A stretch of DNA of 46,943 bases from assembly GCA_944382895.1 (NCBI GenBank), contig CALWNV010000006.1:1-46943 (forward strand), in the 5' to 3' direction. A program made the position numbers and the translations under genes. The notes below the pieces were generated by a model. The model was not told where the DNA came from and did no database searches. It worked only from the letters and a program-made list of their open reading frames with translations. Positions 16,768-40,263 of the stretch are shown here, in pieces. This DNA comes from an uncultured Clostridia bacterium. Its GTDB lineage: Bacteria > Bacillota > Clostridia > Oscillospirales > UBA644. How positions within the stretch are numbered: position 1 is the first letter of the stretch; the number at the start of each line of letters is the position of its first letter.

Positions 16768-19707
16768 TCATTTTTTCAAATTATTCAATATATCTTTAAG
16801 AACAATTTCAGCGCGGGAAGAAGCTATCTTACGTAAAATTTCAACTTCTCTGTCCCATTTTTCATAAGACAAATCCCATCTTTCACAGTTTCGCGGCATT
16901 TCGGCTTTCAGCAGATTATAAAGATTATCTATCCGTGCATTGACCGTATCTGCGGAAAATGAAGTAGACATGAGTTCCTCCGCCCTTGAAATAAAAAGAG
17001 CTTGAAAATCGGCATTTTCGAGGAGCTTACGAAAAAGTATATGCGACACAGTATATGTAACTTCTACAGGATTACCGTCAGACCCGGGTCTTTCAAGCTT
17101 TGTAATTTTATCATTATAAATACGTCCGAAGGGATTCCACGTTTCCCTGAAAGCATAGTCCTGATCATAAAATATCCAACGCCACTTTCCGTCAGACTCA
17201 TCAGATTTATAATATTTTACATTATGGAGATCTATATTCCCCGAATAACATTGAGCAAGCTTAAAATCAATATAATTTTCTACATCTATTTTTGATGCGA
17301 CATACGCATAAGCTTTTGCGTCTGATAATGAGTTTGATGAAACATAGCGTATAAGGGCATTATATTCGGAAGCTGTTCCGTATACTGTTTCCCCGTTTCT
17401 GTAAAGAAGCGTGACACTTTCCGGTGTGACGTTCTCATGAACGGAAACAAAATCCTCATCGACTTTTTCACGTATAAAATATATCCCCCAATATTCTCCG
17501 TTAAGATAGAGAACACATGGTTTATACGCTTGCGTCAGGACTGAAGTACCGTCATATACAATAGAAGTAAAAAGTTCATCACGAAACTTAGAACGCGAAA
17601 TATCCTGAGCTCCGGCCCGTAAAACAAGTGTATTGAATACCGAAACATCGTCATATCTGTCAAACATATTATAATGGAGTTCAGACAGACCGTATTTTTC
17701 CTTGAACTTAACTGAAAACGGCTTTTGAGCTTCAGCTCTTCCGAAATTTCCGAAAATTTTTATTCCGCATCCCGAAGAAAAACCGTCAGAACCTTCCTCG
17801 AAAAACGAAATATATGCAGGCTTTTCCCAGTCCATCCAGAAATTTGCGCCTTTATATGGATATTCAGATGAAGCATTGTTTCCCATAACATATATGCCGG
17901 TCTTAGTGTCCCAAAGATTTTCAGGCGAAGTAGTAAGTGAAACAACTGGAACAGAGTGATTCTCATTTATAATATATGAAAAAACAGATTCCTCACTTTT
18001 CATCTGACCGTCAGAATACGCAATAGCGCGTATAACGGTTGTTTCCGAAAGGATTATTGCTTCTTTGAAAGCAGGTGACGCTGACGTTGGTTCGGAGCAA
18101 TCAAGCGTATAACGAATTTCCGCACCGGGCTCTGATGATAAAACTATTTGTAAAGGCTCAACATTATTGTAAACACCTTCTTTGACAGATGAAACTGTTT
18201 TTCGTGTACGCTGACGAACTCCCTCCGCGTTTTCCGCGGCGGGAGTTACTTGTTCAATGAAAAAAAATCCGGCTCCGGCACTACTTCTTCCATAAGATAC
18301 ATCCGTGGGTAAATCATGAATAAAAACAGCGTCAACAATTTCATTACCGGATGATAAATACAACTCTTCTCCCGATGAACTTATTTTGAACGGCGCATGA
18401 ATATATGATGGAGATGAAAGTGATTCATCACCGGAAGCAAACACGATAAAGAAAGCACCCGGCGCAAGTTTTTTATCGGGAAGCTGCCACAACTGCAATG
18501 CAGAGCTATCGTTTGACAAAAAATATGATGAAAGATCTATCTCCTCGGTACCTGAATTATAAAGCTCAATAAAATCATATGCTCTTCCTCCGTTATGAAG
18601 AAGATATTTTGTATTTGACGCTACAACTTCATTTATCACAAGTGCGCTATCAGAATATGAATGAGCCGAAGAAGCGACACCTTCCGAATTATTTTCATAC
18701 CCGGGTGTCGGATATGCCGTAAGCTCAAAACCGTTATCTGTTTTTTCATACGAATAGTTTGCCGGGATTTCAGAATACTCCGTCTCATCCGAGACAGTTC
18801 CGGACGGCACACGAAGTCCTACATATCCGTTTATGTCGGAAAGATTGAATGAGGTATGTATTTGTCCGTCATGAACGGTATTTTTACCGGAACAATATAT
18901 AACAATAATTTCTCCGGGATAGATAAGATATTCAGGTAATGAATATTTATACGGACGAAGACTATCGTTTGACAGATAATAATTTTTAAGATTGATTTGA
19001 GTTGTTCCAGTATTTTTAATCTCGATCCAATCAGAAAATTCACCGAATCCGTCACGGTTAGTCATTTTATTTTTAGCCATGATCTCATTTATAACGATAC
19101 TTCCGAAACCGCTGTTATACGATGCAAGGAACGCGGCACGCCCGTCTTCCGAATTTTCGTATCCGGGAGTACATATATCCGATACATCCCATTTCCGCCT
19201 CAGAAAATCGGTCCGCACCATCACATTATCCGAAAGTGTTTTTTTAGTTTGAACTATATCAAGCTCTGTTCCTGACGCGTCGGAGAGTAAAAGTATTTTT
19301 CCCCCGTCACGATTAAGCCGGAAAGGGAGGTATAAACCTGATTCATAGTCTCCGGAAAAAAACAAAACTATATATCCCTTAGCCGGTATAACGGTATCCG
19401 CAGGAAATGTCCATACATATGTATCTGTCTTATCGGTGATTGTATATCCGGAAAGAAGGACATCTTCATCTTCATCATTATACAGTTCGATCCAATCATA
19501 AAAATTCCCGTTTTTATCCGGAAATGATTCTTTGTTTGAAAGCATGATTTCATTAAAATATATTTTTTTTCCGGAAAAAACAAAAGCAGAAACCGAATTT
19601 ATATATTCAAATGAAAAAAGAAGAAAAATGCCGAGCACAACAAAAGCAACGAGGACAATAAGCAGCGGCAAAATATTTTTTTTGAAAATATTGCCTGTAT
19701 CCGACAT
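16768..19707 (-). CDS. Membrane-anchored lamin-tail / CotH-kinase protein (copy 1)
   Basis: The 979-residue protein has an N-terminal membrane helix (ILPLLIVLVAFVVLGIFLLF), three lamin-tail-like repeats (each opening with INE(I/V)xxxN and DWIEL or DFIEL), a chitobiase C-terminal-like beta-hairpin (EIRYTLDCSEPTSASPAF), and a C-terminal CotH kinase-like domain of about 340 residues with VFNTLVLRAGAQD, CVLYLNGEYWGIYFIREK, NIDLHNVKYYK and WRWIFYDQDYAF. CotH proteins are atypical protein kinases first found in spore coats. The ATG at 19707 was chosen over the TTG at 19725 because AAAGGAA lies between them. It is a diverged duplicate of the gene at 21441. Targets are unknown. Confidence 0.88.
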   Translation of the reverse strand: MSDTGNIFKKNILPLLIVLVAFVVLGIFLLFSFEYINSVSAFVFSGKKIYFNEIMLSNKESFPDKNGNFYDWIELYNDEDEDVLLSGYTITDKTDTYVWTFPADTVIPAKGYIVLFFSGDYESGLYLPFRLNRDGGKILLLSDASGTELDIVQTKKTLSDNVMVRTDFLRRKWDVSDICTPGYENSEDGRAAFLASYNSGFGSIVINEIMAKNKMTNRDGFGEFSDWIEIKNTGTTQINLKNYYLSNDSLRPYKYSLPEYLIYPGEIIVIYCSGKNTVHDGQIHTSFNLSDINGYVGLRVPSGTVSDETEYSEIPANYSYEKTDNGFELTAYPTPGYENNSEGVASSAHSYSDSALVINEVVASNTKYLLHNGGRAYDFIELYNSGTEEIDLSSYFLSNDSSALQLWQLPDKKLAPGAFFIVFASGDESLSSPSYIHAPFKISSSGEELYLSSGNEIVDAVFIHDLPTDVSYGRSSAGAGFFFIEQVTPAAENAEGVRQRTRKTVSSVKEGVYNNVEPLQIVLSSEPGAEIRYTLDCSEPTSASPAFKEAIILSETTVIRAIAYSDGQMKSEESVFSYIINENHSVPVVSLTTSPENLWDTKTGIYVMGNNASSEYPYKGANFWMDWEKPAYISFFEEGSDGFSSGCGIKIFGNFGRAEAQKPFSVKFKEKYGLSELHYNMFDRYDDVSVFNTLVLRAGAQDISRSKFRDELFTSIVYDGTSVLTQAYKPCVLYLNGEYWGIYFIREKVDEDFVSVHENVTPESVTLLYRNGETVYGTASEYNALIRYVSSNSLSDAKAYAYVASKIDVENYIDFKLAQCYSGNIDLHNVKYYKSDESDGKWRWIFYDQDYAFRETWNPFGRIYNDKITKLERPGSDGNPVEVTYTVSHILFRKLLENADFQALFISRAEELMSTSFSADTVNARIDNLYNLLKAEMPRNCERWDLSYEKWDREVEILRKIASSRAEIVLKDILNNLKK

Positions 19708-19728
19708 CTGTTTGATTCCTTTCAAATA

Positions 19729-21440: not shown

Positions 21441-24368
21441 TCAGCCTCCAAAATACTTGTTATATTCTTCGCTTGACATATTAAGAGAAGAACGAATATC
21501 TTCTATCAAAAACTCCGCACGTGCGCAAGCTCTTTCTTTAAGCCTGTTTACATTTTTTTCCCAAGCTGAAAAACTTCTCTCCCATCGTTCTGTCGTTCTT
21601 TCCATTTCGGATCGTATATCATCAGCCATTGAATCTATTTTTTTTGCAATATTTTCAGCTGAGTACGTCGTTTTCATCAAATAAGAAAATCTCGTAAGAA
21701 ATTTATCCCTGAAAGTATCGTTTTTCAGAAGGTTATAAATAAAAGTATAGATATACCGGAAACCAGGTCGGCCCTCTTCCCTTATATAAAAACTTATCGA
21801 CGTATTATAATAAAATGCCCAGTCAAGATCATAGTATATCCAACGCCACTTACCGTCACCATCCGTAGATTTGAAAAATTTTATATTCCCTGTATCCTGA
21901 TCAGCGGAAAACATACGAGCTATATTATAATCAATATAATTATCCACATCAATTCTTTCCGCAACATAATTATAATAATCCGGATTTGACATATCATGCG
22001 TCATAACATATTCCAAAAGTTCTTTATATTCAGAATTCGAACCGTGAATGGGAGTATAATTTGCCTGTAAAAGAGTTACAGAATCCGGATCAACATTAAG
22101 ATGCTGCGAAACATATTCAGCGTTCACCTTTTCACGAATATAATATACACCGAAATAATCCCCGTTGACATAAAGAACACAAGGTTTATATGCCTGTGTA
22201 AACAATGAAGTATTTTCCGCCGACTGGGCAAGCGATGTCAAAAACTCATCTCTCATCATCGCAACATCCCAATCCTGAGAACCTGAACGAAGAACCAAGT
22301 CGTTAAATTCTGAAATATCGTCAAGCTCATCAAAGAGCTTATATCTTAGTACGGATTCCCCATACATATCCCGGAATTTAAGCTGAAAAGATTTTTTATC
22401 TTCACCACGGCTGTACTGTCCGAATATTTTTATGCCGCAAGGGATAGAAAAACCATTGCGGCCGTCTTCAAAAAAATCGATTTGCCCTGTTTTTTCCCAA
22501 TCCTGCCAAAAATTCGCTCCGTTATAAGGGAATTCCGAAGAAGCCCCAGGACCTTTAACATATATCCCCGTTTCATATCCATACATATCTACAGGATCAA
22601 TTATCATGCTCATAACCGGCAATGAATTGTTTTCGTTTATAATATAGCTCCGACTTACAGACTTACTTTTTAACTTGTTGTCTGCATATGCCGCAACACG
22701 AAGGATCGATGTAGATGTCAACGATATCTCTCCGGTATACAAAGTGCTTGACTTTGTCGGCTCAGAGCCGTCAAGAGTATAGTACAACGTCCCTTCCCCG
22801 CTCACACTTACTTTAACAGATTCAACTCCGTTATATACTCCAGAATCAGTATTTATAACCGGTTCAGAAGTCACTGAGCGTACACCGGAATTATTTTCCG
22901 CTCCGGGAGTCGGTGACGCAATGTAAAAGAGCCCGCTTTCTCCCGAAACACGACCGAGACTGTAATCTATAGGTGTAGCTTTCAGACACATCCCATCTAT
23001 AAGCTCACCTGCTGAAGAATACAAAAATATCTGCTCTTCGTCATTTATTTTAAAATTTGAATGAACATAAGCGCTGTTTGAAAGAATCTCACTGCCCGAT
23101 GCGACAACCACATATAATTCTCCTGGTCCTAAAAGCACATCTGGTAACTGCCACATCGCGGGTTCATCTGAGTTTGAAGAAAGATAAAAATCTTTAAGAG
23201 AAATATCATTGTCGGAAATATTTTTCAGTTCGACCCAGTCGTAATACTTTCCTCCGTTTTGTTTAAGATAAGAAGAATTTTTTGACATCGCTTCATTAAT
23301 GACAAGTGTTTTTTTATTCGTATCCGAATAACTGTAAAACCCGGAATAATCCGAATTCTCAAAGCCGGGGGTAGGCTCGTATGTTTTCGCAAAATTTCCG
23401 TCAGCATCACGCGCATACGCGCAACTTTTCGCAAGACTGTCATAATAAACTGTGTCTAATATTTTCCCGTTGCTTGAAGACAGCATAACCACTCCGCCGG
23501 AAGCCTTTAGCTTAAAATCTGTATGGAGCTCTTTTTTAGTGCGATCTTTTTCAGACGCAAAAACCAGCGCACACTCACCCGCTCCTAAGGTCATATCCGG
23601 AAACTGCCATTTATACGGTGCAGATTCATCATCGGAAAGAGAATAATTTCTGAGATTTACAGACGCGGTGCCCGTGTTTCTAACTTCAATCCAATCAGAG
23701 TACTCCCCGTCCTCATCTGCGATCGTCAATTCATTTGCAGCCATAAATTCATTTATAACGATATCGGAAGCCGATGCGCTTTTACGGGATTCGATCAATG
23801 CAAGATATCCTTCTTCGTCGTTAGGATATCCCGGGGTACTTTGGTCGGAAATTTTCCATTCACCTTCAATATAAGCCATACTTTTATTGCTTTCGGCAGC
23901 CGTAGTCTTAACAGCGTCAAGCTGTATTCCGTCCCGATTTTTCAACACAAGAGTTTCACCGCCAGATTTAGCAAGAGTAAATGGGGCAAACAGCCCGCCT
24001 CTAGCAACGCCGCAACAATATACTATTAAAAATCCATGAGGATCAATAACCGTATTTGAGGGAATAGTCAATGATGTTTTTCCGTTAACAACAACATATC
24101 CGCTAATATCCGCAGCAGTGCCGGAATCGTTATAAAGCTCTATCCAATCGGATAAATTTCCCGCAGGATCAACTAAAACGCCTTTATTTGAAAGCATTAT
24201 TTCATTGATACGGATAGCAGTGGATCCTCCTGCGGCTCCGGGGGTTTTCCCCTCAGTCAATAAAAATATAAAAGCAGATACCGCGGCTATTATAATAAAA
24301 GCTGCAAATAACAACAAAATTTTTATTAAATTTCTTTTTGAAAGTCTCGGATCGTCTTTTTTGATCAA
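21441..24368 (-). CDS. Membrane-anchored lamin-tail / CotH-kinase protein (copy 2)
   Basis: The 975-residue protein has the same order as its paralogue at 16768: an N-terminal membrane helix (IKILLLFAAFIIIAAVSAFI), three lamin-tail-like repeats (IRINEIMLSN, IVINEFMAAN, LVINEAMSKN), a chitobiase-C-like element (LYYTLDGSEPTKSSTLYTGE) and a CotH kinase domain with FNDLVLRSGSQDW, CVLYVNGDYFGVYYIREKV and WRWIYYDLDWAF. The start is TTG at 24368 with AAGGAG eight bases upstream; there is no better ATG. It is the first gene of the four-gene operon and diverges from the DUF1540 gene. Export through the single helix would put the kinase domain outside the membrane. Confidence 0.88.
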   Translation of the reverse strand: MIKKDDPRLSKRNLIKILLLFAAFIIIAAVSAFIFLLTEGKTPGAAGGSTAIRINEIMLSNKGVLVDPAGNLSDWIELYNDSGTAADISGYVVVNGKTSLTIPSNTVIDPHGFLIVYCCGVARGGLFAPFTLAKSGGETLVLKNRDGIQLDAVKTTAAESNKSMAYIEGEWKISDQSTPGYPNDEEGYLALIESRKSASASDIVINEFMAANELTIADEDGEYSDWIEVRNTGTASVNLRNYSLSDDESAPYKWQFPDMTLGAGECALVFASEKDRTKKELHTDFKLKASGGVVMLSSSNGKILDTVYYDSLAKSCAYARDADGNFAKTYEPTPGFENSDYSGFYSYSDTNKKTLVINEAMSKNSSYLKQNGGKYYDWVELKNISDNDISLKDFYLSSNSDEPAMWQLPDVLLGPGELYVVVASGSEILSNSAYVHSNFKINDEEQIFLYSSAGELIDGMCLKATPIDYSLGRVSGESGLFYIASPTPGAENNSGVRSVTSEPVINTDSGVYNGVESVKVSVSGEGTLYYTLDGSEPTKSSTLYTGEISLTSTSILRVAAYADNKLKSKSVSRSYIINENNSLPVMSMIIDPVDMYGYETGIYVKGPGASSEFPYNGANFWQDWEKTGQIDFFEDGRNGFSIPCGIKIFGQYSRGEDKKSFQLKFRDMYGESVLRYKLFDELDDISEFNDLVLRSGSQDWDVAMMRDEFLTSLAQSAENTSLFTQAYKPCVLYVNGDYFGVYYIREKVNAEYVSQHLNVDPDSVTLLQANYTPIHGSNSEYKELLEYVMTHDMSNPDYYNYVAERIDVDNYIDYNIARMFSADQDTGNIKFFKSTDGDGKWRWIYYDLDWAFYYNTSISFYIREEGRPGFRYIYTFIYNLLKNDTFRDKFLTRFSYLMKTTYSAENIAKKIDSMADDIRSEMERTTERWERSFSAWEKNVNRLKERACARAEFLIEDIRSSLNMSSEEYNKYFGG

Positions 24369-24867: not shown

Positions 24868-27102
24868 TTACAATTTACCCGATATTATTTTGAACAATAA
24901 TAACGCATCGTTGATCCCGACATTCCCGTCAGCATTCATGTCAGCTCGTGACATGTTGATTTCGGGAAGTTTCCCGGCAACATATTTGAACAAAAGCATG
25001 GCGTCTGAAATAGTCACATCTCCGGAATAATTCACGTCTCCAATAATATCTGGAAGCTCATAACGATACATCGTACAAAACAGGAAATCTACACCCGGTA
25101 TTCTGTACGGTAAATATTCAGACCACGAACCGTCAGGCAAAATATAGGTAAAAAATATTGTATGCTCAACAGCGGTCCCTTCAGGAAGCTCAGGAAGAAA
25201 TGGTGCCCATTCACTCCATGCCGTTTGCCCGGATAAAACCGTAACAATACATTTTTTTACAACACTGCCGTCACCAGAAACAATATCAATAACGGCCGAA
25301 CCCATACTTTTCCCATATACTATACCTAAGGATGAAACGCTTGCAATACCCGGATCGGAAGACACGAAAACGACATCTTTGTTTGAAGCGTTGTCAGGGA
25401 CAACGTTAACAGTTATCCTGTCGGCAAATCCTATATCAATAAACATACTGTCCGTAGAGATTTCAATATCTGAAACCGGAACATCTGTTTCAAAAACGCG
25501 CACGGATATCGTTTCCTTTATACCGGAGGATGCCATAACATTTATTCTTGTCTCGCCCGGAGAAACAGCTCTGACAAGGCCGTTATCAACAACAGCTACA
25601 GTCTCGTCATCACTGCTCCACACAAGACTTTTATCCGAAGCATCTTCCGGAAGAACCTCTACATGTACGGAATATGTGTCCGAAGGTGCCATCGCGATCG
25701 TTATCGTATCTGACAATATTTGACTTACAGGAACAAAATGAGAAAAGAGATACCCTTTGATATCTTTTATAAAATCCGAAGTTTTTGCTTTCTTGATTTT
25801 ATATGATGTCTCATACGATGAATAGTAAACATATTCTTTTAAAGAATCCCCTTCGCGCGAAAATCCTTCTATTACACCTGCAGATCCATTATTTGTAATA
25901 TAGATAGCCCCCGATTGAGGTTGTCCGCCATATTGTGCGATTATACCTTTTTCCGCATTATTTTTATAAGCTTCTGTCAGCCAATTTGAAACATCAGGAC
26001 TGACTCCCTCCAACAGGATATCCGAAAGTTCCGCAAATCTTCCGTAAACATACCAAGCTTCAGTAAATGAAGTGAAATTGTTTTGGAATGTATATCTCTG
26101 TCCGTATATATCGGCGGCAACAACACCTATGCTGCCCTCAAGTTCTGTTTCACTCAATGCCCTGCCAATATTTTCGGTTCGTGCCGCCACACCTTCACGT
26201 AAATATTTATACGCGACATATCCGACACCTCCGCCATACTTAATCTTTATCCAGTCAAGGCCGTCAACACTTACAATGCTGTCAGGATATGCGGAAACGG
26301 AATCACGGTAAAAAAGACTGCCGATAACCGTTCCGCCCGGCGATGAACGTACGTTCACGGAACCGGGCAAGCAATTATTTGTAGCGATTGTATGCATTAT
26401 AAGTGTTTCCCCGTCCTGATCTCCCGGAAGGGCGGTTTCGTCAGTAAAAATATACCCGACAACACCGTTAACAAAAGATTCCAATGTCTTTTTCCGTACC
26501 TGACCGTCAGTCGGATCAAATAAATTAGTTTTTGAACCTGATATATTATAATTCGCGTCTGTATAATAAACATAACGACCGTCGTCGGAAATCCCCTCGA
26601 CAAAGCCGACATGCCCGAATGAAGAATTATTTTTTACGAATATTGAACCAACTACAGGGTTCCATACATCTGTAGAATATACAACACCCTGGTCGGCATT
26701 ATTAGACGGTATAACATTAAGCCAGTCACATGCGTTCGGGATCCTACCTTTCAGGGCAATACCGTAAACCTCAAGAAAACGCCCGTAGGCATACCATGTA
26801 CATTGCCCTATATACTGCGCGCAATGCCCGCTTCCCGCCGGATACTCGTTGTGTTCATCTGAATGTGAAGACCATGTACAATCGTCTGCCCATATCCAAT
26901 ATCCAATAGAAAGAGGATTTTTTTCTGTAAAATAACAGTCATCGCCGTCAGGATCAATATCTGCAATGACCGTACCTAAACAAGACTCAAGCTCATCCGC
27001 CGAAAGCAAAACGCTTTCTTTTGCCGAAAAAGAGAAAGAGAACGCCGTAAAAAGTGAAAAAACAAAAACGATCGCAAAAAAAAGTGATATCGACCTTTTC
27101 AC
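24868..27102 (-). CDS. Exported CHAP / SH3 / Ig-like / dockerin protein
   Basis: The 744-residue protein starts at GTG 27102 (AGGGAGGG upstream; an upstream ATG would lack a site) with a signal peptide (SISLFFAIVFVFSLFTAFSF). CHAP 1 (about 80-220) has the catalytic GQCTWYAYGRF and the histidine in SFGHVGFVEG. A bacterial SH3 domain (about 230-300; NVRSSPGGTVIGSL) follows. CHAP 2 (about 310-450) has the same fold but reads TEAWYVYGRF and GSAGVIEG, so both catalytic Cys and His are lost. Two BIG2-like Ig domains and a C-terminal dockerin (DVNYSGDVTISDAM, DMNADGNVGINDAL) complete it. It may hydrolyse peptidoglycan through copy 1. Confidence 0.9.
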   Translation of the reverse strand: MKRSISLFFAIVFVFSLFTAFSFSFSAKESVLLSADELESCLGTVIADIDPDGDDCYFTEKNPLSIGYWIWADDCTWSSHSDEHNEYPAGSGHCAQYIGQCTWYAYGRFLEVYGIALKGRIPNACDWLNVIPSNNADQGVVYSTDVWNPVVGSIFVKNNSSFGHVGFVEGISDDGRYVYYTDANYNISGSKTNLFDPTDGQVRKKTLESFVNGVVGYIFTDETALPGDQDGETLIMHTIATNNCLPGSVNVRSSPGGTVIGSLFYRDSVSAYPDSIVSVDGLDWIKIKYGGGVGYVAYKYLREGVAARTENIGRALSETELEGSIGVVAADIYGQRYTFQNNFTSFTEAWYVYGRFAELSDILLEGVSPDVSNWLTEAYKNNAEKGIIAQYGGQPQSGAIYITNNGSAGVIEGFSREGDSLKEYVYYSSYETSYKIKKAKTSDFIKDIKGYLFSHFVPVSQILSDTITIAMAPSDTYSVHVEVLPEDASDKSLVWSSDDETVAVVDNGLVRAVSPGETRINVMASSGIKETISVRVFETDVPVSDIEISTDSMFIDIGFADRITVNVVPDNASNKDVVFVSSDPGIASVSSLGIVYGKSMGSAVIDIVSGDGSVVKKCIVTVLSGQTAWSEWAPFLPELPEGTAVEHTIFFTYILPDGSWSEYLPYRIPGVDFLFCTMYRYELPDIIGDVNYSGDVTISDAMLLFKYVAGKLPEINMSRADMNADGNVGINDALLLFKIISGKL

Positions 27103-27142
27103 GGTGTGCCCTCCCTGTATATATAATATTATGATAATATCT

Positions 27143-27171
27143 ATTATACGACATATTATGACAAAAGTCAA
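27143..27171 (-). promoter_or_regulatory. Housekeeping promoter of the CHAP-dockerin gene
   Basis: On the minus strand TTGACT (27166-27171) and TATAAT (27143-27148) are 17 bases apart, about 40 bases upstream of the GTG start. Confidence 0.8.
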
Positions 27172-28943: not shown

Positions 28944-31592
28944 TCACAGCTCAGCAACAGCAATAAAAGCACCCTCACCGCTTTCAAGAGTTATTGTCGC
29001 AGGAAGAACTGATTCCTTTATCATCCCCCTGTAAACTATTTTAACAGCAGAGGCGCCAATTGCAGTGAACTTCACACATATACTTTTATTAAGCGAAAGC
29101 TCCGTCGCGTTACAGAGCATATATGCTCTGCCTCCGCCTGGCTTAGAAAAAGAACCGATCAAAACACAATCGTCACATTCTACTGCAAGATCTCCTTTAT
29201 ATTCAACCTCAGCCGCTACATATCCAGGAGCAGGGTTTTTACCTTTATGAACTCCGGAATTTTGCCAGAGATATTCAGAATAAAGCAGAGAAAAAGGTTT
29301 TATCTCAGAGTTCACAAGCTTAACATAATCATATAATTTCGTATATCTGTGAGCATAATCTCTCATGCAGTACACTTCATCGGAATAGATTGATTTTTCA
29401 GGGTCATAACCCGAACAGTCATAACAATAATTCATAATCTTATCGGCACCGTATGCAAGCGATGAATAATACTGGAATCGTATGTCGGCAAGCGAAACAT
29501 CTCGCTGTTCATTCCCCTTCATTGTTTGGATATATGTCCAGAAATCCATATTATACTTCCGCGCATACTCAGCAGGGATATGTAATCCGGTATAATAATT
29601 GTCATATGTTTTTTTTACTCCGTCATAACCGGTAAGAGGATATGGATCAATACAAAGATGAAACGCGGGAACCTGATCGACAAAACCTCTTATATACTCA
29701 TCATAATCCATCCCACGAAGCAATGCTTCGACGCCCATATCAGAAAATAGATTCACATGGATATCGTATCCGGGCAAAGCTTCAATATATGCCCGGAAAA
29801 TTCCTGCTATTTTAGGATAATCGGAATGAGAAGGCTCATCGCAATAATCATTGCCTAAAAATATCGGCAAATCACGATACGGTAAAGTATAATGTAAGAC
29901 CTTCTCCGTTGTCCATTCAGTTTCGGCATTCAACGCGGAATCATGAATATAAACATAAATACCGTATTTTTCTGCCCAATTCAGACATTTTTCATGACAT
30001 TCCGAATCCGTTACATAATCCAGAATAATAAAATCCAGCCCACATTCCTTAATTTTCTTAAAATCGTCTTCGACTGCGAAAGCAGGATGAACAGCAATAT
30101 ATCCGCTGAACATAATTTCGCCGCGACGCATTTTCTTATGCAAAAGTATATTCCATTCCGGATAAAAAGCAATGTCCTCCGTTACGAACAGTTTATCAAG
30201 AATTTTCTTTTTATCTGATGTGTTCCAGCCTCCGAATACAAAGCCTTTACACTCCGGAATATCGGTTATTTCCATAAGGTCATATATATTGCACTGAAAG
30301 TCTCTGACGCCTTCAAGAGATATCTTTTTACTGTCTAACAATAACTTGTTGTCAAGCGTTGTTGATGAACCGGATACAGAATATTCCGCCAATAATCCAT
30401 CAGCGGTTCTTGGATTTTTAACTTCAAGAATCACGGGATAAAGTTTTTTTGAATTTTTAGGTATAAATTTCAGTGATACAATCGTGCACGCATCGCATAA
30501 ACCTTCATATTTGTCAAAATAAAAAGAAAGGCAATTATATCCTGAGGTTATTTTAGTGATATGTTTGTCCGGTATAAATTCCATAATACTACTGTCATAA
30601 TACAAAAAAAACTCCGCGTACGCTAAATCAGAACCGGATCCTACATTGATATCTATCATGACAAAATCCGGTGAAATATCCGAAATATCCACTGAAAATT
30701 TTATTATATTTATTTTGCGAAAACAAAGCCCGTCAATCGCATTTTTAAGATCAGTGATCGCTTCCTGGCACATCACATCGTCGGCATAAGGTTTTATAAT
30801 ATCACATGCATTCATCGCGTCGGAAACCGCCTTAGCAGTTTCCTTGGTATAACGATCAAGGTCTTTTGAAACCTCAGCATATACCTTACGAGCATTTTTT
30901 ATAAAAGCCGTATTCGTTCCAGTTTCCTCAAAAAGCTTAAGTCTCTGCTTTTCCAAGGAATCAATAATACCGGATATTTCCTCTGCTGTAACTGAATTGT
31001 CGCTTATCGCGCCGCACAAAGAATCCAATAAATCACAGTAAAAAACTGTCGCTTGACTTTTTTTGCTTTTTGTATCAAATGTTGTATAGAAAAAATACGC
31101 ATCATAATTTTTCAACGCTTCTGCTAACCTGGATATTCTATCCTTATTAAAGGTACATACGCCGTTAACAAGATCATCCGCTGCGCATTTAAGCAAATAA
31201 AGAATATCTTCCCCGGTTTTATCTGTCATATAATCACTGTTTTTCGCGATATCGGTCATTTCAACAACGCTGTTCCATACAGATACGGCATTTTTATCCG
31301 GACAAGACTGCAGATATCCGAATCCGCGCTGTAAATCGTTTTCACGCAACAAGTATATCCCTGCGCTCAACGCCATTCCTTTCCTCCATGCTCTGAAGCT
31401 TTTATCAAGTTCTGAAACCAATTTCGCGAGTTTCGTGTAATCCTTTTCATCAAAAGCGCTCTGAGCCGCTGGAAGAAGCTTTTCGACAAATTCAACATAT
31501 ACAGGATTTGTCTTGTTTTTTTTGAGCACAACTCTGTCTTTGAAATTTTTGAGCTTCTTGAATTGAATTTCATTTTCAGATAATATTCTCAT
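28944..31592 (-). CDS. Large protein with helical N-terminus, cohesin-like domain, Flg_new-type repeat and glycosidase-like TIM barrel
   Basis: From the ATG at 31592 the protein has 882 residues and no signal peptide. Residues 1-300 are largely helical. A cohesin-like beta domain follows (about 305-430; FFLYYDSSIMEFIP and ACTIVSLKFIPKNSKKLYPV). A short InlB/Flg_new-like repeat ends FYPEW. The C-terminal half looks like a TIM barrel: GYIAVHPAFAVEDDFKKIKE, the NDYCDEPSHSDYPKI segment with a possible acid, and IDPYPLTGYDGVKKTYD. The exact glycosidase family is not recognised. GGTGA precedes the ATG at 31592; an alternative ATG at 31604 is possible. Longer starts run into the tRNA terminator and tRNA-Trp. 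Confidence 0.65.
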   Translation of the reverse strand: MRILSENEIQFKKLKNFKDRVVLKKNKTNPVYVEFVEKLLPAAQSAFDEKDYTKLAKLVSELDKSFRAWRKGMALSAGIYLLRENDLQRGFGYLQSCPDKNAVSVWNSVVEMTDIAKNSDYMTDKTGEDILYLLKCAADDLVNGVCTFNKDRISRLAEALKNYDAYFFYTTFDTKSKKSQATVFYCDLLDSLCGAISDNSVTAEEISGIIDSLEKQRLKLFEETGTNTAFIKNARKVYAEVSKDLDRYTKETAKAVSDAMNACDIIKPYADDVMCQEAITDLKNAIDGLCFRKINIIKFSVDISDISPDFVMIDINVGSGSDLAYAEFFLYYDSSIMEFIPDKHITKITSGYNCLSFYFDKYEGLCDACTIVSLKFIPKNSKKLYPVILEVKNPRTADGLLAEYSVSGSSTTLDNKLLLDSKKISLEGVRDFQCNIYDLMEITDIPECKGFVFGGWNTSDKKKILDKLFVTEDIAFYPEWNILLHKKMRRGEIMFSGYIAVHPAFAVEDDFKKIKECGLDFIILDYVTDSECHEKCLNWAEKYGIYVYIHDSALNAETEWTTEKVLHYTLPYRDLPIFLGNDYCDEPSHSDYPKIAGIFRAYIEALPGYDIHVNLFSDMGVEALLRGMDYDEYIRGFVDQVPAFHLCIDPYPLTGYDGVKKTYDNYYTGLHIPAEYARKYNMDFWTYIQTMKGNEQRDVSLADIRFQYYSSLAYGADKIMNYCYDCSGYDPEKSIYSDEVYCMRDYAHRYTKLYDYVKLVNSEIKPFSLLYSEYLWQNSGVHKGKNPAPGYVAAEVEYKGDLAVECDDCVLIGSFSKPGGGRAYMLCNATELSLNKSICVKFTAIGASAVKIVYRGMIKESVLPATITLESGEGAFIAVAEL

Positions 31593-31654
31593 TTTTTTCA
31601 CCATGCGTTTCTTTTCAGAAATAATATTTATAATCAATAAAACACATCTCATAA

Positions 31655-31686
31655 ATAAAAAACCGAACCCATTAATAAAGGTTCGG
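31655..31686 (-). terminator. Terminator of the tRNA-Lys/tRNA-Trp unit
   Basis: CCGAACC(C) (31663-31670) pairs with GGTTCGG (31680-31686), followed on the minus strand by T6. It lies eight bases past the tRNA-Trp CCA end. Confidence 0.88.
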
Positions 31687-31694
31687 CGCTGTTC

Positions 31695-31770
31695 TGGCAG
31701 GGGCAGAAGGAATCGAACCCTCGGCACGCGGTTTTGGAGACCGCTGCTCTACCTGCTGAGCTATACCCCT
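31695..31770 (-). tRNA. tRNA-Trp (anticodon CCA)
   Basis: The minus strand folds into a 76-base cloverleaf: acceptor AGGGGTA/TGCCCCT with a G discriminator and encoded CCA, D-arm with TAGCTCAGCAGGTAGAGCA, anticodon arm GCGGT-CTCCAAA-ACCGC (anticodon CCA), and T-arm with GGTTCGATTCC. It lies 71 bases downstream of tRNA-Lys and shares its promoter. Confidence 0.97.
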
Positions 31771-34187: not shown

Positions 34188-35027
34188 TCACTTCATCTTT
34201 TGAGAAAGAGTATCGTAAAAAGAAATATTTTTGAATTTGATAAGCTTAGTAACCTTACCGGATTTTTTCAGCCTGACCGTATCATTTTCCTGCAAAGGAT
34301 AGTTTATATATCCGTCAAGGGTAAGATAATAAGGAATCTTCATATCATTAAATGTAACGGAAAGATGAGCGTCATGATTAAATATAATCGATCTGGTAGA
34401 CAATGTGTGCGCACAAATAGGCGTAGCAATAATTGAAGACAAAGCCGGGTCGACAATCGGCCCTCCCGCAGATACAGAATATGCCGTTGAACCGGTAGGC
34501 GTTGCGAAAATTATTCCGTCGGCACGATAAGAAGAGATAAACTTATCATGATTATATACATTGATGTCTATAAGCCGTGAAACCACACCTCGTGAGATAA
34601 CGGCGTCATTAAGCGCATTATCGGTAAATATAAGACTGCCGTCACGCCAAAGCTTTACATCTATCATCATTCGCGGCTCAACCGTATATGCCTCGTTCAC
34701 AAGACCGTCAAGGATATCAATCTCATTTTGCTCTATTTCAGCCATAAAACCGACTTTTCCCATATTTATACCTATTATCGGCAAATCATTGAGCGCGGCT
34801 TCCTGTGCGACACGAAGAATAGTTCCGTCTCCGCCTATAGTAAACAAAAAATCAGACTCCCTGAAACAATCCTCTCTCGGCAAAAATTTAACGGCCGCGT
34901 CAAGCTCTGCGACACAAGGACTGTCGGCTAATATCTGTATGTCAAGACTGACAAGCTTTTTTATGAGCTTGTTTGTGACATATAGTCCGATATCACGTTC
35001 AGCGTTTGGCATTATTGCGGCTTTCAA
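34188..35027 (-). CDS. nadK: NAD kinase
   Basis: This 279-residue enzyme phosphorylates NAD to NADP. GGDGT at residues 65-69 with the following NMGKVGFM, and the later TPTGSTAYSVSAGGPIV, are diagnostic. It overlaps the tlyA stop by four bases (ATGA), so translation is coupled. Confidence 0.96.
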   Translation of the reverse strand: MKAAIMPNAERDIGLYVTNKLIKKLVSLDIQILADSPCVAELDAAVKFLPREDCFRESDFLFTIGGDGTILRVAQEAALNDLPIIGINMGKVGFMAEIEQNEIDILDGLVNEAYTVEPRMMIDVKLWRDGSLIFTDNALNDAVISRGVVSRLIDINVYNHDKFISSYRADGIIFATPTGSTAYSVSAGGPIVDPALSSIIATPICAHTLSTRSIIFNHDAHLSVTFNDMKIPYYLTLDGYINYPLQENDTVRLKKSGKVTKLIKFKNISFYDTLSQKMK

Positions 35028-35782
35028 TTCAGTTTCTCCTTTATAATGTGTTTCAGATCATATATAATCGGCAAATACCCATTTTTCATATAAAATAAAA
35101 ACTCCGTATTTCCGTCTCCGCCGAGTATAGGTGATTTAGTAATACCGACAACAGAATAATCGTTCTTTTCACATAAAACAATGACTTTTTGCAATACAGA
35201 CAACAAATCTTTTTCCGATTTTACTACACCGTTTTTTATTCTTTTCCTTCCTATCTCAAACTGAGGCTTGACAAGACATATTATAGCAGAATCCTCACGA
35301 ATATGTTTTCGTATATAAGGCAAAACATTTTCAAGGGATATAAATGAAACATCTACAGTCGCAATATCAAATAAAATGTCTGATTCATAATTTCTGATAT
35401 CAGTTCCTTCAAGATTAACAACTCTGTCATCATAGACAAGCTTTCTGTCAAGTTGACCGTGACCGACATCAAGCGCGTAAACTTTTGCCGCACCGTTTAT
35501 AAGCGCGCAATCTGTAAACCCGCCTGTCGAGGCACCTATATCCAGAACTGTTTTCCCGGAAAAATCGAGTTTAAATATATCAATTGCCTTTTCAAGCTTG
35601 TACCCGCCGCGACCTACATATTTCAAATTGTTCCGGACAGTTACAACATCCCCTGTCAAAACATCATATGAAGGTCTACAGTGAGCTCCGTTTACACCTA
35701 CGTCACCGTTGTTTATCGCAAACTGAGCTTTGGTGCGCGAAGAAAAAAAATTATTCTCAACCAAATATACATCAAGTCTCAT
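35024..35782 (-). CDS. tlyA: TlyA-family rRNA 2'-O-methyltransferase
   Basis: This 252-residue protein has an N-terminal S4 RNA-binding domain (MRLDVYLVENNFFSSRTKAQ) and a FtsJ-like methyltransferase domain with the SAM motif VLDIGASTGGFTDC (about 79-92), DVSFISLENV and VKPQFEIG. TlyA methylates 16S and 23S rRNA riboses in several bacteria. It follows the OapA-like gene with a four-base overlap. A dxs gene often lies between these two genes in other Firmicutes but is absent here. Confidence 0.94.
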   Translation of the reverse strand: MRLDVYLVENNFFSSRTKAQFAINNGDVGVNGAHCRPSYDVLTGDVVTVRNNLKYVGRGGYKLEKAIDIFKLDFSGKTVLDIGASTGGFTDCALINGAAKVYALDVGHGQLDRKLVYDDRVVNLEGTDIRNYESDILFDIATVDVSFISLENVLPYIRKHIREDSAIICLVKPQFEIGRKRIKNGVVKSEKDLLSVLQKVIVLCEKNDYSVVGITKSPILGGDGNTEFLFYMKNGYLPIIYDLKHIIKEKLN

Positions 35783-36411
35783 TTGCCAGAAAAAACCTTT
35801 TCAGGAATAATAAAACATATCAATCTCGCAAAAAAGAAAACAATATCATTGCTCTTTTTTATTGCAAAGTTTTTCCCGAGAGCTTTAATAGAAACAGTTA
35901 TCGCGGAAATAAGAGAAGTCACTATCAGCATTGTTAAAAAAGTATTGGCCGTAAACAGCGAAGATACCTGCGCCGCTATAACAGCTGACATCGTTCCGCT
36001 CAATACGTTCGCGACATCACCAATAACGTCGTTACAAAAACTTGAGACAGTATCCGCGCGAACTGTCAACCAAAACGCAGCCTTAGCTCCCTTGACTTTT
36101 TTTGTGGCCATGGAATTGAAAGGAGTACAATTTGCAGCGGCAACACTAACGCCTAAAATATCAAAAACCAGCCCTATAAATATAAATATACATAATACAG
36201 CGACAGCAAGCCATATATTTACATCGCTTCCACTTGCGCTTTCGGAAACCAATGACATCAATGCCGCAACAATAAAGGAAAGGATAAAAGCACGGGTCGC
36301 CCATTTGAAATTAAAAGTTTTCTGCCGCTGTTTTTTTATCGGCTTAGTTTGTTTTTCTGCTTTTTTATCGGTAATTTCGGAATCCACGTCCGGATTATCT
36401 TCGGTTTTCAT
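35779..36411 (-). CDS. oapA: OapA-like four-helix membrane protein (OLE RNA partner)
   Basis: From the ATG at 36411 (GAGGAGA upstream) the protein has 210 residues: a charged, Lys-rich tail of about 38 residues, then four predicted membrane segments (about 41-57, 66-90, 125-150, 157-177) and a basic C-terminus. The loop AAANCTPFNSMATKKVKGAK is between helices 2 and 3. Length, topology and place (between the structured RNA and tlyA) match OLE-associated protein A, which anchors OLE RNA at the membrane in Bacillus halodurans. The basic tail suits RNA contact. Identification rests mostly on position, since I cannot run a homology search. It overlaps tlyA by four bases. Confidence 0.72.
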   Translation of the reverse strand: MKTEDNPDVDSEITDKKAEKQTKPIKKQRQKTFNFKWATRAFILSFIVAALMSLVSESASGSDVNIWLAVAVLCIFIFIGLVFDILGVSVAAANCTPFNSMATKKVKGAKAAFWLTVRADTVSSFCNDVIGDVANVLSGTMSAVIAAQVSSLFTANTFLTMLIVTSLISAITVSIKALGKNFAIKKSNDIVFFFARLICFIIPEKVFSGK

Positions 36412-36436
36412 ATTTCTCCTCTCATAATAAAAAAAA

Positions 36437-37057
36437 GATGACAGCATGGAAGGTTAATCTTACGTCTTAGGTCAAGTAGGTTTCCCCATGACTTACCGTA
36501 TGTCGCCAAAACGGCGGTTTCCCTTTAAAAGCCACGAAAACTGCGTCACCGCAATTTTGACTTGATTGCCACTCAGTACGTACTGCAATCCCTTCCATGC
36601 ATCAGTCTAGGAGCTTTCCTCAACGGAATTTGAATAATTCTTAGTCTCTTTTGCAAATACGGTTTCTTATCGCAATAAAATTGCTTTACGGCCGTAAAGC
36701 AATTTTTGGCCGATATCCGCCGCACTCACTCAAGACAGGCTACACTGCACATAGCAAATCTCACATTTTTTGCAATCAGCTGCAGTCAAGCAGCGGAGAA
36801 ATACCACACTGCAGGTTCAATCCCAAGCCGTAGCGCGCAAAAACACCACGTTCTTGGGTCTCCAAGGCTGAAGGGTCGGTATTGCCGTATGCCATTACGG
36901 TTGCCCGGCAGCCCGTCGCCATTAAGCGACCCAACCAGCACCCACCCTATACTGGGCGTACAAAGCAGGCACCAGAAGTTTCACAGATATGCCCTTCGGT
37001 GGATTTTTAGCCCCACCCTGGTAATTATCAAATCCGACTAGAATACTGTATCATCGT
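36437..37057 (-). ncRNA. ole: OLE RNA (ornate, large, extremophilic RNA)
   Basis: About 620 bases lie between ispA and the OapA-like gene without a credible coding frame, and with higher G+C and many hairpins. These include a 30-base perfect palindrome (36677-36706), GTCGC/GCGAC, CGCC/GGCG, GATTGC/GCAATC (36564-36590), and a 10-bp closing stem GCATGGAAGG (36444-36453) with CCTTCCATGC (36591-36600). OLE RNA is about 610 bases and in other Firmicutes lies between ispA and oapA, in an operon with nusB, xseA, xseB, tlyA, nadK, argR and recN; this arrangement is matched here. Ends are inferred from the promoter at 37064-37092 and a U-run at 36429-36436. It is not RNase P or tmRNA by motif. Confidence 0.8.
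36677..36706. repeat. 30-base perfect palindrome within the OLE RNA
   Basis: The two 15-base halves (36677-36691 and 36692-36706) are exact reverse complements, with centre CGG|CCG. In RNA this would be an extended stem of one arm; its tight loop would open the central pairs. Confidence 0.9.
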
Positions 37058-37063
37058 TTTTAT

Positions 37064-37092
37064 ATTATAACATATTTCTGTGAAAATTTCAA
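37064..37092 (-). promoter_or_regulatory. Housekeeping promoter of the OLE RNA
   Basis: TTGAAA (37087-37092) and TATAAT (37064-37069) are 17 bases apart on the minus strand, after the ispA stop. A start near 37057 is predicted, which gives an RNA of about 620 bases to the U-run at 36429-36436. Confidence 0.8.
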
Positions 37093-37118: not shown

Positions 37119-37976
37119 TCAGTTTTCACGCTTACAAAGCATATCGGCAAAATCACATAATTTCTCGCTGTTACCGAATTTTTTAATAGCACTGACTGCC
37201 GTTTCGGAAAGATTTTTCACCTTTTCCTGAGCACCTTCACAACCAAAAATATCCACAAACGTCGTCTTGCATTCTTTCTTATCTTTACCGATGCTTTTAC
37301 CCATTTTCTCTTTTGTTCCGACAACATCAAGTATATCATCCCGTATCTGAAATGCGAGACCGATATTTTCAGCGTATACATGGAGCGCGTCTTTTTTCTC
37401 GCCGTACTCATCCGCAGCGACAGCTCCACACAATACACACGCCTCAAGCATGGCGCTTGTTTTAAGACGATGTATACGTAAGACATCTTGTTCGGAAAGG
37501 GTATTCTTATTATTTTCCATATCCAAAACCTGACCCAGAACTATTCCATTAAAGCCGGAAGCATTAAGTAAAATATCTATTCCGGATAATTTTTGACGAT
37601 CAGTTAGATCGCTTGCAATAACAGTTTCATACGCGCGGGCATAAAGTCCCATCCCGGCCATCAGAGCCATCGCTTCTCCGTATACAACATGATTGGTGGG
37701 CCTCCCGCGACGAAGACTGTCATCATCCATACACGGCATATCATCGTATATCAGGGAATAGGTGTGTATAATCTCAAGCGCGCAAGCAAACGGTAAAGCG
37801 CGTTCAGGAGATTTACCGCAAAATTCACACGCAAGCATCGTCAGCACCGGTCTGACGCGCTTTCCTCCGGCAAAAATACTGTAGCGCATCGCTTCTGTAA
37901 GACGCTCATCATCTTGAGGGAAGCATTCTTCAAGAGCATTATTAACTTTTTCGATATACGGCCTGAAATCAGTCAT
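37119..37976 (-). CDS. ispA: Farnesyl (geranyl) diphosphate synthase
   Basis: This 285-residue trans-prenyltransferase has the first aspartate-rich motif DDMPCMDD at 78-85 and the second at FQIRDDILD, with GGKRVRP near residue 38. It makes C15 (or C10) diphosphates for undecaprenol and quinone synthesis. I set the start at the ATG at 37976 (AAAGGAG upstream, family N-terminus TDFRPYIEK) and not at the longer frame. It overlaps the xseB stop by eight bases. It is the last protein gene before the OLE RNA. Confidence 0.95.
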   Translation of the reverse strand: MTDFRPYIEKVNNALEECFPQDDERLTEAMRYSIFAGGKRVRPVLTMLACEFCGKSPERALPFACALEIIHTYSLIYDDMPCMDDDSLRRGRPTNHVVYGEAMALMAGMGLYARAYETVIASDLTDRQKLSGIDILLNASGFNGIVLGQVLDMENNKNTLSEQDVLRIHRLKTSAMLEACVLCGAVAADEYGEKKDALHVYAENIGLAFQIRDDILDVVGTKEKMGKSIGKDKKECKTTFVDIFGCEGAQEKVKNLSETAVSAIKKFGNSEKLCDFADMLCKREN

Positions 37977-38172
37977 CGGTATCTCCTTTTGAAAGAATCT
38001 CAATTTTAGCCTTGTATTCATTTAACTGCTTATAACAAAAATCCGCAAGCTTGACGCTTTCTTCATAAAGTTTCATCGCATCTTCTAAAGGAAGTTCGCC
38101 TTTTTCCAAAGTTTCGGCTATCGCTTCAAGGCGTTTTAACGCCTGCGTGTATGTTTGTTTTGTCTGTGACAT
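37969..38172 (-). CDS. xseB: Exodeoxyribonuclease VII small subunit
   Basis: The 67-residue protein has the family pattern ALKRLEAIAETLEKGELPLE and EESVKLADFCYKQL. Several XseB helices bind each XseA. The ATG at 38172 (SQTKQTYTQALKRL) matches the usual N-terminus; starts at 38190 or 38187 are also possible and would extend the overlap with xseA. It overlaps both neighbours. Confidence 0.93.
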   Translation of the reverse strand: MSQTKQTYTQALKRLEAIAETLEKGELPLEDAMKLYEESVKLADFCYKQLNEYKAKIEILSKGDTDD

Positions 38173-39334
38173 CGCAGAATATTTCACCATCTTTCAATAT
38201 TATTTCAATATTATCGCCTTTCCTGACAGAATCCACCGACGACACTAATCGCTCACCGCTGTAGGCAAGCGAATATCCGCGCGATAAAACAGATAATGGG
38301 CTTAATGCGTTTATCTCAGCAACAATCTTATCCAATAAATATCCGCAATCCGCAAAGCAGGAAGAAACAGAATAAGCGGAGCGCTCGCTGAGAGTTGCGA
38401 TATACGCACTGTTTTTATTAAGAACTTCATCAAAATCAATACGTTCCGAAAGATTGTCAATAAATGAAAAACTACTGTCTAAGAAATTATCAATAGCCCG
38501 TCTACATAAAGAAAAACAGGAATCTGTTTTCAAATATAATTCTTCTTTACTCGGTGTAACAGACTGGGCTGCCGCTGTCGGTGTCGCAGCACGAAAATCT
38601 GCAACAAAGTCGAGAATCGTAAAATCCGTTTCATGCCCGATCGCGCTGACAACCGGAACATCAAGTGCGTATACAGTTCTTGCAAGAGTTTCATCATTGA
38701 ATCCGGAAAGATCCTCAAACGAGCCGCCGCCACGGGTAATAACCAAAACATCGATATTTTTATTTTTTATCGTTTCTATCGCCCGGATAACTGATCGAGG
38801 ACAATCCTCTCCCTGAACAGTCGCCTCACATATAAGTATATCGGCAAACGGATATCTGTTCTGGACTGTAACACAGAAATCATGTATGGCTGCGCCGTTG
38901 AGTGAAGAAATAAGACCTATTTTTTCCGGATATCGAGGGACAGATTTTTTATTTTCCGGATCAAACAACCCCTCTTTTTCAAGCTTTCGCTTTAATTGTT
39001 CATAAGCTATAAATTCCGAACCTATACCGTCCGGTATCATATCGGAAACATAGAGCTGATACTGTCCTGTTTTCTCAAATACGGAAACACGTCCGGTCAC
39101 AAAAACTTTCATCCCGTCTTCAGGCCTGAATTTAAGTAAGGAAAACTCTTTTGCAAACATTACGGATGAAACCGCACTTTCAGAATCTTTTAATGTAAAA
39201 TAAGCATGTCCGCTATTGTACAGCTTGAAACCGGATATCTCTCCTGAAACAGTGATTCGTTGCAGATATTTATCAGATTCGAGTATATTGCGGACATAAA
39301 TATTCAGTTGTTTTACCGTCAGTATCACACTCAT
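38126..39334 (-). CDS. xseA: Exodeoxyribonuclease VII large subunit
   Basis: This 402-residue nuclease subunit has an N-terminal OB-fold (ITVSGEISGFKLYNSGHAYF), the catalytic region with TSLNGAAIHD-like (SSLNGAAIHDF), RGGGSFEDLSGFNDETLAR, and SAIGHETDFTILDFVADFRA. The C-terminus has GYSLAYSGERLVSSVDSVRKG and a short tail. It degrades single-stranded DNA. AGAGGG precedes the ATG; it overlaps the TsaD-like stop by four bases (ATGA). Confidence 0.96.
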   Translation of the reverse strand: MSVILTVKQLNIYVRNILESDKYLQRITVSGEISGFKLYNSGHAYFTLKDSESAVSSVMFAKEFSLLKFRPEDGMKVFVTGRVSVFEKTGQYQLYVSDMIPDGIGSEFIAYEQLKRKLEKEGLFDPENKKSVPRYPEKIGLISSLNGAAIHDFCVTVQNRYPFADILICEATVQGEDCPRSVIRAIETIKNKNIDVLVITRGGGSFEDLSGFNDETLARTVYALDVPVVSAIGHETDFTILDFVADFRAATPTAAAQSVTPSKEELYLKTDSCFSLCRRAIDNFLDSSFSFIDNLSERIDFDEVLNKNSAYIATLSERSAYSVSSCFADCGYLLDKIVAEINALSPLSVLSRGYSLAYSGERLVSSVDSVRKGDNIEIILKDGEIFCDVTDKTNIHAGVKTP

Positions 39335-40263
39335 AGTTTTCCCTCTGTTTTCAGTTTAGCAAGATACGCAATTCCTACTGCGTTATCAGATGAAAGCGGC
39401 GGAGGCGCAAAATATGCTTCACAAATATTTTTTACCGATTCCCTTAAAAACTGATTAGACATTACACCGCCGGCAAATACAACAGGATATGCTCCGAATT
39501 TGTTCATCGTATATGATATGGTGTTCTTAATATTCTCAAGGACAGCCGACTGAACAAAACGGGCAGTTTCAAAAGCATCAGAGGTTTCATCAAAAATTTT
39601 TCGAGCCGCATTTTCATATCCGGAAAGGCAAACATCCGCTTCTTTTCGCGCGATCTTAATTTTACTCTTAAAAGATATTCCCCCGGCAAGTTTTTCCATA
39701 GCGGCTCCGCAAGGAAACTCAAGCCCGAGAAAGACACCTACCCTGTCAATAAGTTGTCCCGCCGTTATATCAAGAGTCTTGGACACAATTTTTATATTAT
39801 CAAATCCATTCACAAAAAGCAACTCCATCGTCCCGCCCGAAAGATGATATGCAAAAAACGGTCTATGGATAAAATCTTCTTTCCCCTCAGCGAATAAAAC
39901 AGAAGCTATGTGTCCTTGCTGATGAGAAAAACCATAAAAAGGGACACCGGCCGCGCCAGCAACAGCCTTTGCGGCAAGGAGCCCCGGCAAAAAACACGGC
40001 ATATAAGAACCTTCGGTATTACGAGGGGAAACTGAAGCGCCTACCGCAATAGGATTCAATAAATCTAACTCCTGAATAAGTTCCGGTAGAGCTTTTACAT
40101 GCAAAAAAACAGCATCGGATTGCCTCAAGCCCTTCTCTCCCGACGGTACGGGCAAAGGCTTTTTTTTGCATATATAATACGCTGCCCCGGTCAGCACGCC
40201 GACCGAGGTGGTGTAGTTTGAGGTATCAAACCCAATATACTTATTTTCCGTTTTCGCGCACAT
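39331..40263 (-). CDS. TsaD/Kae1-family (peptidase M22-like) protein
   Basis: This 310-residue protein has the ASKHA ATPase pattern of TsaD: IGFDTSNYTTSVGVL at the start, GFSHQQGHIAS with an HxxxH iron or zinc site near residue 120, YHLSGGTMELLFV, and FAGGVMSNQFLRE near the end. It is shorter than true TsaD (about 340), and Clostridia carry a second such gene next to nusB/xseA, so this is probably a paralogue whose role in t6A tRNA modification is uncertain. It overlaps the nusB stop. Confidence 0.82.
   Translation of the reverse strand: MCAKTENKYIGFDTSNYTTSVGVLTGAAYYICKKKPLPVPSGEKGLRQSDAVFLHVKALPELIQELDLLNPIAVGASVSPRNTEGSYMPCFLPGLLAAKAVAGAAGVPFYGFSHQQGHIASVLFAEGKEDFIHRPFFAYHLSGGTMELLFVNGFDNIKIVSKTLDITAGQLIDRVGVFLGLEFPCGAAMEKLAGGISFKSKIKIARKEADVCLSGYENAARKIFDETSDAFETARFVQSAVLENIKNTISYTMNKFGAYPVVFAGGVMSNQFLRESVKNICEAYFAPPPLSSDNAVGIAYLAKLKTEGKL

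Follow-up and report, generated by a model that had tools for sequence, protein, structure and literature searches.

The window, that is, the whole stretch of 46,943 nucleotides analysed here, carries a gene for the OLE RNA with oapA directly downstream of it on the minus strand. OLE, a large and structured RNA of bacteria, is located in the cell membrane, where its partner protein OapA accompanies it. The two genes belong to a cluster that reads, on the minus strand, spoIIIA genes, asp23, nusB, a tsaD-like gene, xseA, xseB, ispA, OLE, oapA, tlyA, nadK, argR, recN and two tRNAs; spoIIIA, asp23, xseA and xseB were named from sequence and gene order rather than from profiles. A sequence-only reading of the window had described this order as the same as that of the known OLE operon. 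The description holds for the operon genes it listed but not for dxs, which sits between oapA and tlyA in Bacillus-type relatives and is missing from that place both in the window and in its closer relatives. The gene between nusB and xseA (39331-40263, minus strand) encodes a TsaD/Kae1-like protein of 310 residues that scores 111 bits, well below the TsaD equivalog cutoff of 296. The coordinates of the locus are collected in Table 1.

Table 1. Features of the OLE-oapA locus, in ascending window coordinates.
Feature	Positions	Strand	Basis
tlyA, with S4 and FtsJ-like methyltransferase domains; overlaps the oapA stop at its start	35024..35782	minus	profile match
oapA, 210-residue membrane protein with invariant FCNDVIGD (DxxxD); ATG at 36411, stop at 35779	35779..36411	minus	alignment, motif, fold, position
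OLE RNA gene, full-length type	36422..37070	minus	Rfam match span, covariation in 12 family members, no coding frame
Two hairpins with GGUGAC and GGCGAC loops, P12.2/P13 region	36500..36558	minus	GGCGAC invariant in 12-member alignment
P9 palindromic loop ACGGCCGU	36688..36695	minus	GGCC in 12/12
P6 loop region GUAAUGGCAUAC	36887..36898	minus	GGCAU invariant in 12-member alignment
P5 loop ACGCCCAGU, includes GCCCA	36951..36959	minus	invariant in 12/12
Kink-turn region, 5' side	36975..36987	minus	GUGAAA/AUGAAA conserved in 12-member alignment
P4 hairpin, A-rich loop CUAAAAAU	36998..37017	minus	loop invariant in 12-member alignment
Sigma-70-type promoter, TTGAAA-17-TATAAT, TG before -10	37064..37092	minus	11/12 consensus bases
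ispA, farnesyl diphosphate synthase, upstream neighbour of OLE	37119..38021	minus	profile match

An Rfam scan of the whole window gave a single OLE match (RF01071, minus strand; 420 bits, E 4.4e-120), which covers positions 1-616 of the 616-position model and lies well above the gathering score of 50 bits. The OLE gene proposed in the sequence-only reading is thus borne out, and the position given for it (36437-37057) was nearly exact with respect to the Rfam span. The RNA proper runs from about 37055 to 36437; the model extends a few bases beyond it on both sides, and the start of the match overlaps the -10 box of the promoter. The segment of about 620 bases is non-coding, as had been claimed, with 5-13 stops in every frame and none open throughout. 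A coding origin was considered for a 111-residue frame on the plus strand (36706-37041) and rejected, as this frame is not conserved in relatives. A tRNA or another RNA family was likewise rejected, the only other Rfam matches in the window being the two separate tRNAs downstream of recN. The window holds an OLE gene, an ordinary member of an already-known family.

The claim that the segment has a promoter of its own also stands. The promoter departs from consensus at a single base, and 10 of 11 family relatives have comparable boxes, some of them weaker, ahead of their OLE genes (that of G004 is unclear), which indicates at the sequence level that the promoter is conserved in the family. An own promoter, a location directly upstream of oapA and a run of U at the end of the stretch, before the oapA ribosome site, are compatible with a long leader or attenuator of oapA-tlyA in place of a separate OLE-class RNA. 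We consider such a leader extremely improbable: the covariance match to OLE is full length, and in other genomes OLE stands away from oapA, either before dxs or flanked by recG and a glycosyltransferase gene, so that the RNA has no fixed link to oapA of the kind a leader would have.

The secondary structure of this separate OLE RNA was analyzed in an alignment of the 12 OLE genes of the host family (mean column identity 77%). The pairs examined are those of the Rfam structure, which comes from a wider set of sequences than these 12 and to which the window sequence was fitted. The window RNA forms standard pairs at 142 of the 150 mapped Rfam pairs, and across the 12 genes 88% of the cells are paired, a value that falls to 38-44% when the 3' partners are slid as a control. 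Both sides have changed in 64 of the 150 pairs, compared with a mean of 35 (sd 3.4) in shuffles, none of which is as high; the covariation score is 0.293, against 0.146 (sd 0.007) for the shuffles. These values argue for a secondary structure that is kept by compensatory changes within the host family.

With respect to the Rfam model, P8 of the window RNA is longer by about 45 bases, a 14-base insert precedes P6, and a small hairpin before P10 is missing. Because P7, P8 and a long P9 are all present, the RNA is of the full-length type and is not one of the reduced gut variants 1 (TANB77) or 2 (RF39) described previously (PMC11332333). It shares its secondary structure, dimer-contact loops, kink-turn region and OapB-site hairpins with the OLE RNAs of Halalkalibacterium halodurans and Clostridium acetobutylicum/C. 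botulinum, and its gene has like neighbours, with ispA upstream and oapA downstream.

The dimer-contact loops are invariant or compatible across the 12 family members. In cryo-EM structures, the A-rich loop of P4 forms an A-A dimer contact and the GGCC of P9 a kissing loop (PMC12286853), and the loop of P5 is the intermolecular kissing partner of that of P6 (PMC12265935). The kink-turn, which is the OapC site in H. halodurans (PMC9723947), forms without protein according to the cryo-EM work (PMC12286853), and its sequence is retained in the window RNA despite the fact that no OapC was detected in the host genome. The P12.2/P13 region corresponds to the place where OapB binds in H. halodurans (PMC9723947, PMC12054373).

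The frame that follows OLE encodes a protein with 23 Lys and Arg residues against 15 Asp and Glu, and its AlphaFold2 model (mean pLDDT 87) consists of four long helices (residues 35-59, 66-92, 119-153 and 157-185), in agreement with the four-helix basic membrane protein of 210 residues described beforehand. The protein has no match above cutoff in Pfam or NCBIfam, and no PDB relative was found with its sequence profile. Because it matches no standard family, its identity as OapA, which profiles thus failed to return, rests on relatives, motif, fold and position. In the alignment, 52 Bacillota OapA relatives are 33-47% identical to the window protein, and FCNDVIGD, D84, G87, F98, G139, K176 and K180 are invariant in 53 of 53 sequences. 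The DxxxD motif, D128-VIG-D132 in the window protein, separates OapA from CNNM domains, which lack it (PMC11332333).

A search of structural homologues of the model using Foldseek returned CNNM/CorB or CorC structures as all six of its best PDB matches. The top four are MtCorB (probability 0.99-1.00, E 9e-3 to 0.24), a resemblance that is weak in terms of its E-value (9e-3) and has a TM score of 0.44. Best structural matches of the CNNM type have reportedly been published for H. halodurans OapA as well, and weak Pfam CNNM matches occur in 33 of the 53 members of the OapA family. The best structural match of the model is therefore with the MpfA/CorB/CorC group of CNNM magnesium transporters. 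MpfA-type proteins, by contrast, are frames of 416-475 residues with CBS and CorC domains, both of which are absent from OapA. The frame is OapA; it shares the invariant FCNDVIGD, lysines 176 and 180, the four long helices and the CNNM-like fold with the known OapA proteins, and shows nothing beyond normal divergence from them.

OLE is present in 12 of the 20 genomes of the host family, and OapA in exactly those 12. CNNM proteins of MpfA size were found in six OLE-free genomes (G002 and G015-G019, 2-4 matches each) and not in any of the 12 genomes with OLE and OapA, in which the weak CNNM matches have the coordinates of OapA and represent that protein. Two family genomes with neither OLE nor an MpfA-type CNNM protein are 57-61% complete. 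At the two OLE-free loci that were read gene by gene (G016 and G002), tlyA lies directly after ispA. OLE-OapA and MpfA are mutually exclusive within the host family, a pattern that replicates the published avoidance of MpfA by OLE across Bacillota (PMC11332333). At the level of the host order, OLE occurs in 118 of 394 genomes, and strong CNNM matches in 22 of the 118 OLE-positive against 263 of the 276 OLE-negative genomes; these counts are non-independent through shared ancestry, and Fisher values overstate the strength of the pattern because it rests on few evolutionary events. Two genomes of the order (G094 and G182) display CNNM matches of OapA strength, i.e., weak ones, and no OLE match.

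A search of 60 OapA loci placed OLE on the same fragment in 57 of them. The other three (L051, L060 and L074) were considered as exceptions to the pairing of the two genes, and OLE was found elsewhere in two of the three genomes, whereas none was seen in the third. The two are uncultured Bacilli (L051/L145 and L074/L144) in which OLE has a glycosyltransferase gene on one side and recG on the other, with oapA elsewhere in the genome. The third, the uncultured Bacilli genome ABMPRH_31_1_2 (L060; G021), has an intact oapA and no OLE match in an assembly of 1.4 Mb, and could represent either the loss of OLE from the assembly or a true OapA-only genome. Clostridium senegalense JC122 (G025; L142 and L147) contains two full-length OLE genes (528 and 503 bits) that are 86% identical over aligned bases. 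One is located between ispA and dxs, with no adjoining oapA; the other is followed by oapA, next to an ABC transporter gene.

The accessory proteins OapB and OapC, to which the sequence-only reading had also pointed, were sought in the host assembly (G000; 1.79 Mb in 122 contigs, 92.8% complete). OapB, which a match to PDB 7k9b (E 1e-7; 'OLE-associated protein B') confirmed as such in the family, is encoded between map and infA in the OLE-positive genera read at that place, and was found in 10 of the 12 OLE-positive family genomes. It was not found in the host assembly or in G005. Both also lack infA, its neighbour in sister genera, and because infA is missing too, the gap probably corresponds to an unassembled region in each. 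At the map-infA place of the OLE-free genomes G002 (contig C111) and G015, OapB is absent. G002 is the only OLE-free genome of the family with a partial OapB-like match; we do not regard it as a genuine exception, since the match sits on a second adk-map-infA ribosomal contig that is probably contamination.

OapC (YbxF, L7Ae family) was not detected in the host either, no PF01248 match being found in the 92.8% complete assembly. Only one of the 12 OLE-positive family genomes, G005, has an OapC-type gene in the classic rpoC-rpsL place, and the weak L7Ae matches in G001 and G011 were rejected as OapC because they are YlxQ, encoded beside nusA/infB. OapC is essential in H. halodurans. A host without detected OapC is nevertheless not unusual, because the protein is carried by only about 45% of OLE hosts and is missing in about 55% (PMC11332333). 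Undetected OapC and OapB, together with a genome of only 1.79 Mb, would fit a decayed locus, one whose RNA and OapA can still be recognised although they are nonfunctional in a reduced genome that lacks their known partners. Such decay is very improbable given a full-length OLE match with no domain lost, pairs maintained by compensatory change, invariant protein-contact and dimer loops, an intact OapA with all invariant residues, and a conserved promoter; in addition, the OapB gap is probably one of assembly, and the lack of OapC is shared with that 55% of published hosts.

The window almost certainly contains a functional full-length OLE ribonucleoprotein locus; the identities of the RNA and of OapA, the conservation of structure and promoter, and the exclusion of MpfA in the family come from direct analysis of the genomes. 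Transcription of the 0.6 kb OLE RNA would begin at its own promoter, within the isoprenoid/recN operon, and the RNA would fold like known OLE RNAs. Dimerisation, membrane insertion and a function in stress are carried over from work on H. halodurans, C. acetobutylicum and C. botulinum. By this analogy, the RNA may dimerise via its P4, P5/P6 and P9 loops and be held in the membrane by a dimer of the OapA encoded just downstream, with OapB probably bound to the P12.2/P13 hairpins. The most likely role would be that of a membrane particle that adjusts the handling of divalent metals (Mg2+, possibly Mn2+) and stress adaptation, as proposed for OLE elsewhere, and the particle may do the work that is given to the CNNM transporter MpfA in other Bacillota. 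The description of OLE as a catalytic-style RNA is a hypothesis from the literature.

The sequence-only reading had considered OLE notable in a gut-type, spore-forming Clostridium, the RNA having been named for extremophiles. This point is already in print: OLE has been reported in 2,822 Bacillota genomes, gut clades have been described and a correlation with sporulation genes noted, and its occurrence in anaerobic and gut Bacillota, the partial lack of OapB/OapC and the avoidance of MpfA are all published (PMC11332333); the frequency of OLE in the host order is in keeping with this. The window copy adds no new kind of system, but one more full-length OLE host in an anaerobic, fibre-associated lineage. 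In the host family, OLE, OapA and OapB occur as a set or not at all, with MpfA where the set is missing, and the family thus provides closely related genomes for the published idea that OLE/OapA and MpfA overlap in metal handling. We tentatively propose, as a plausible though somewhat doubtful extension, that OLE-OapA-OapB and MpfA are interchangeable divalent-metal modules in this family, with sister genera carrying one or the other, and that the OLE particle works as a full-length RNA with OapA and OapB, mostly without OapC. If so, the host family would constitute a compact natural experiment on the work of the OLE RNA.

Outside the cluster, the minus strand of the window contains a frame of 927 residues (28944-31727) with no Pfam or NCBIfam match, whose true start is probably further in because a tRNA overlaps the start as listed. 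A pair of similar proteins, each about 980 residues long (16768-19725 and 21441-24368, minus strand), both carry a CotH kinase domain, a chitobiase C-terminal domain and lamin tail domains, the latter three in number in each; their genes flank a GH127-like gene and adjoin a rhamnosidase-like gene. Two further, probably secreted proteins (12439-14379 and 24868-27171, minus strand) have C-terminal dockerin type I domains, one of them with CHAP and Big_2 domains as well, which suggests cellulosome-like assemblies.
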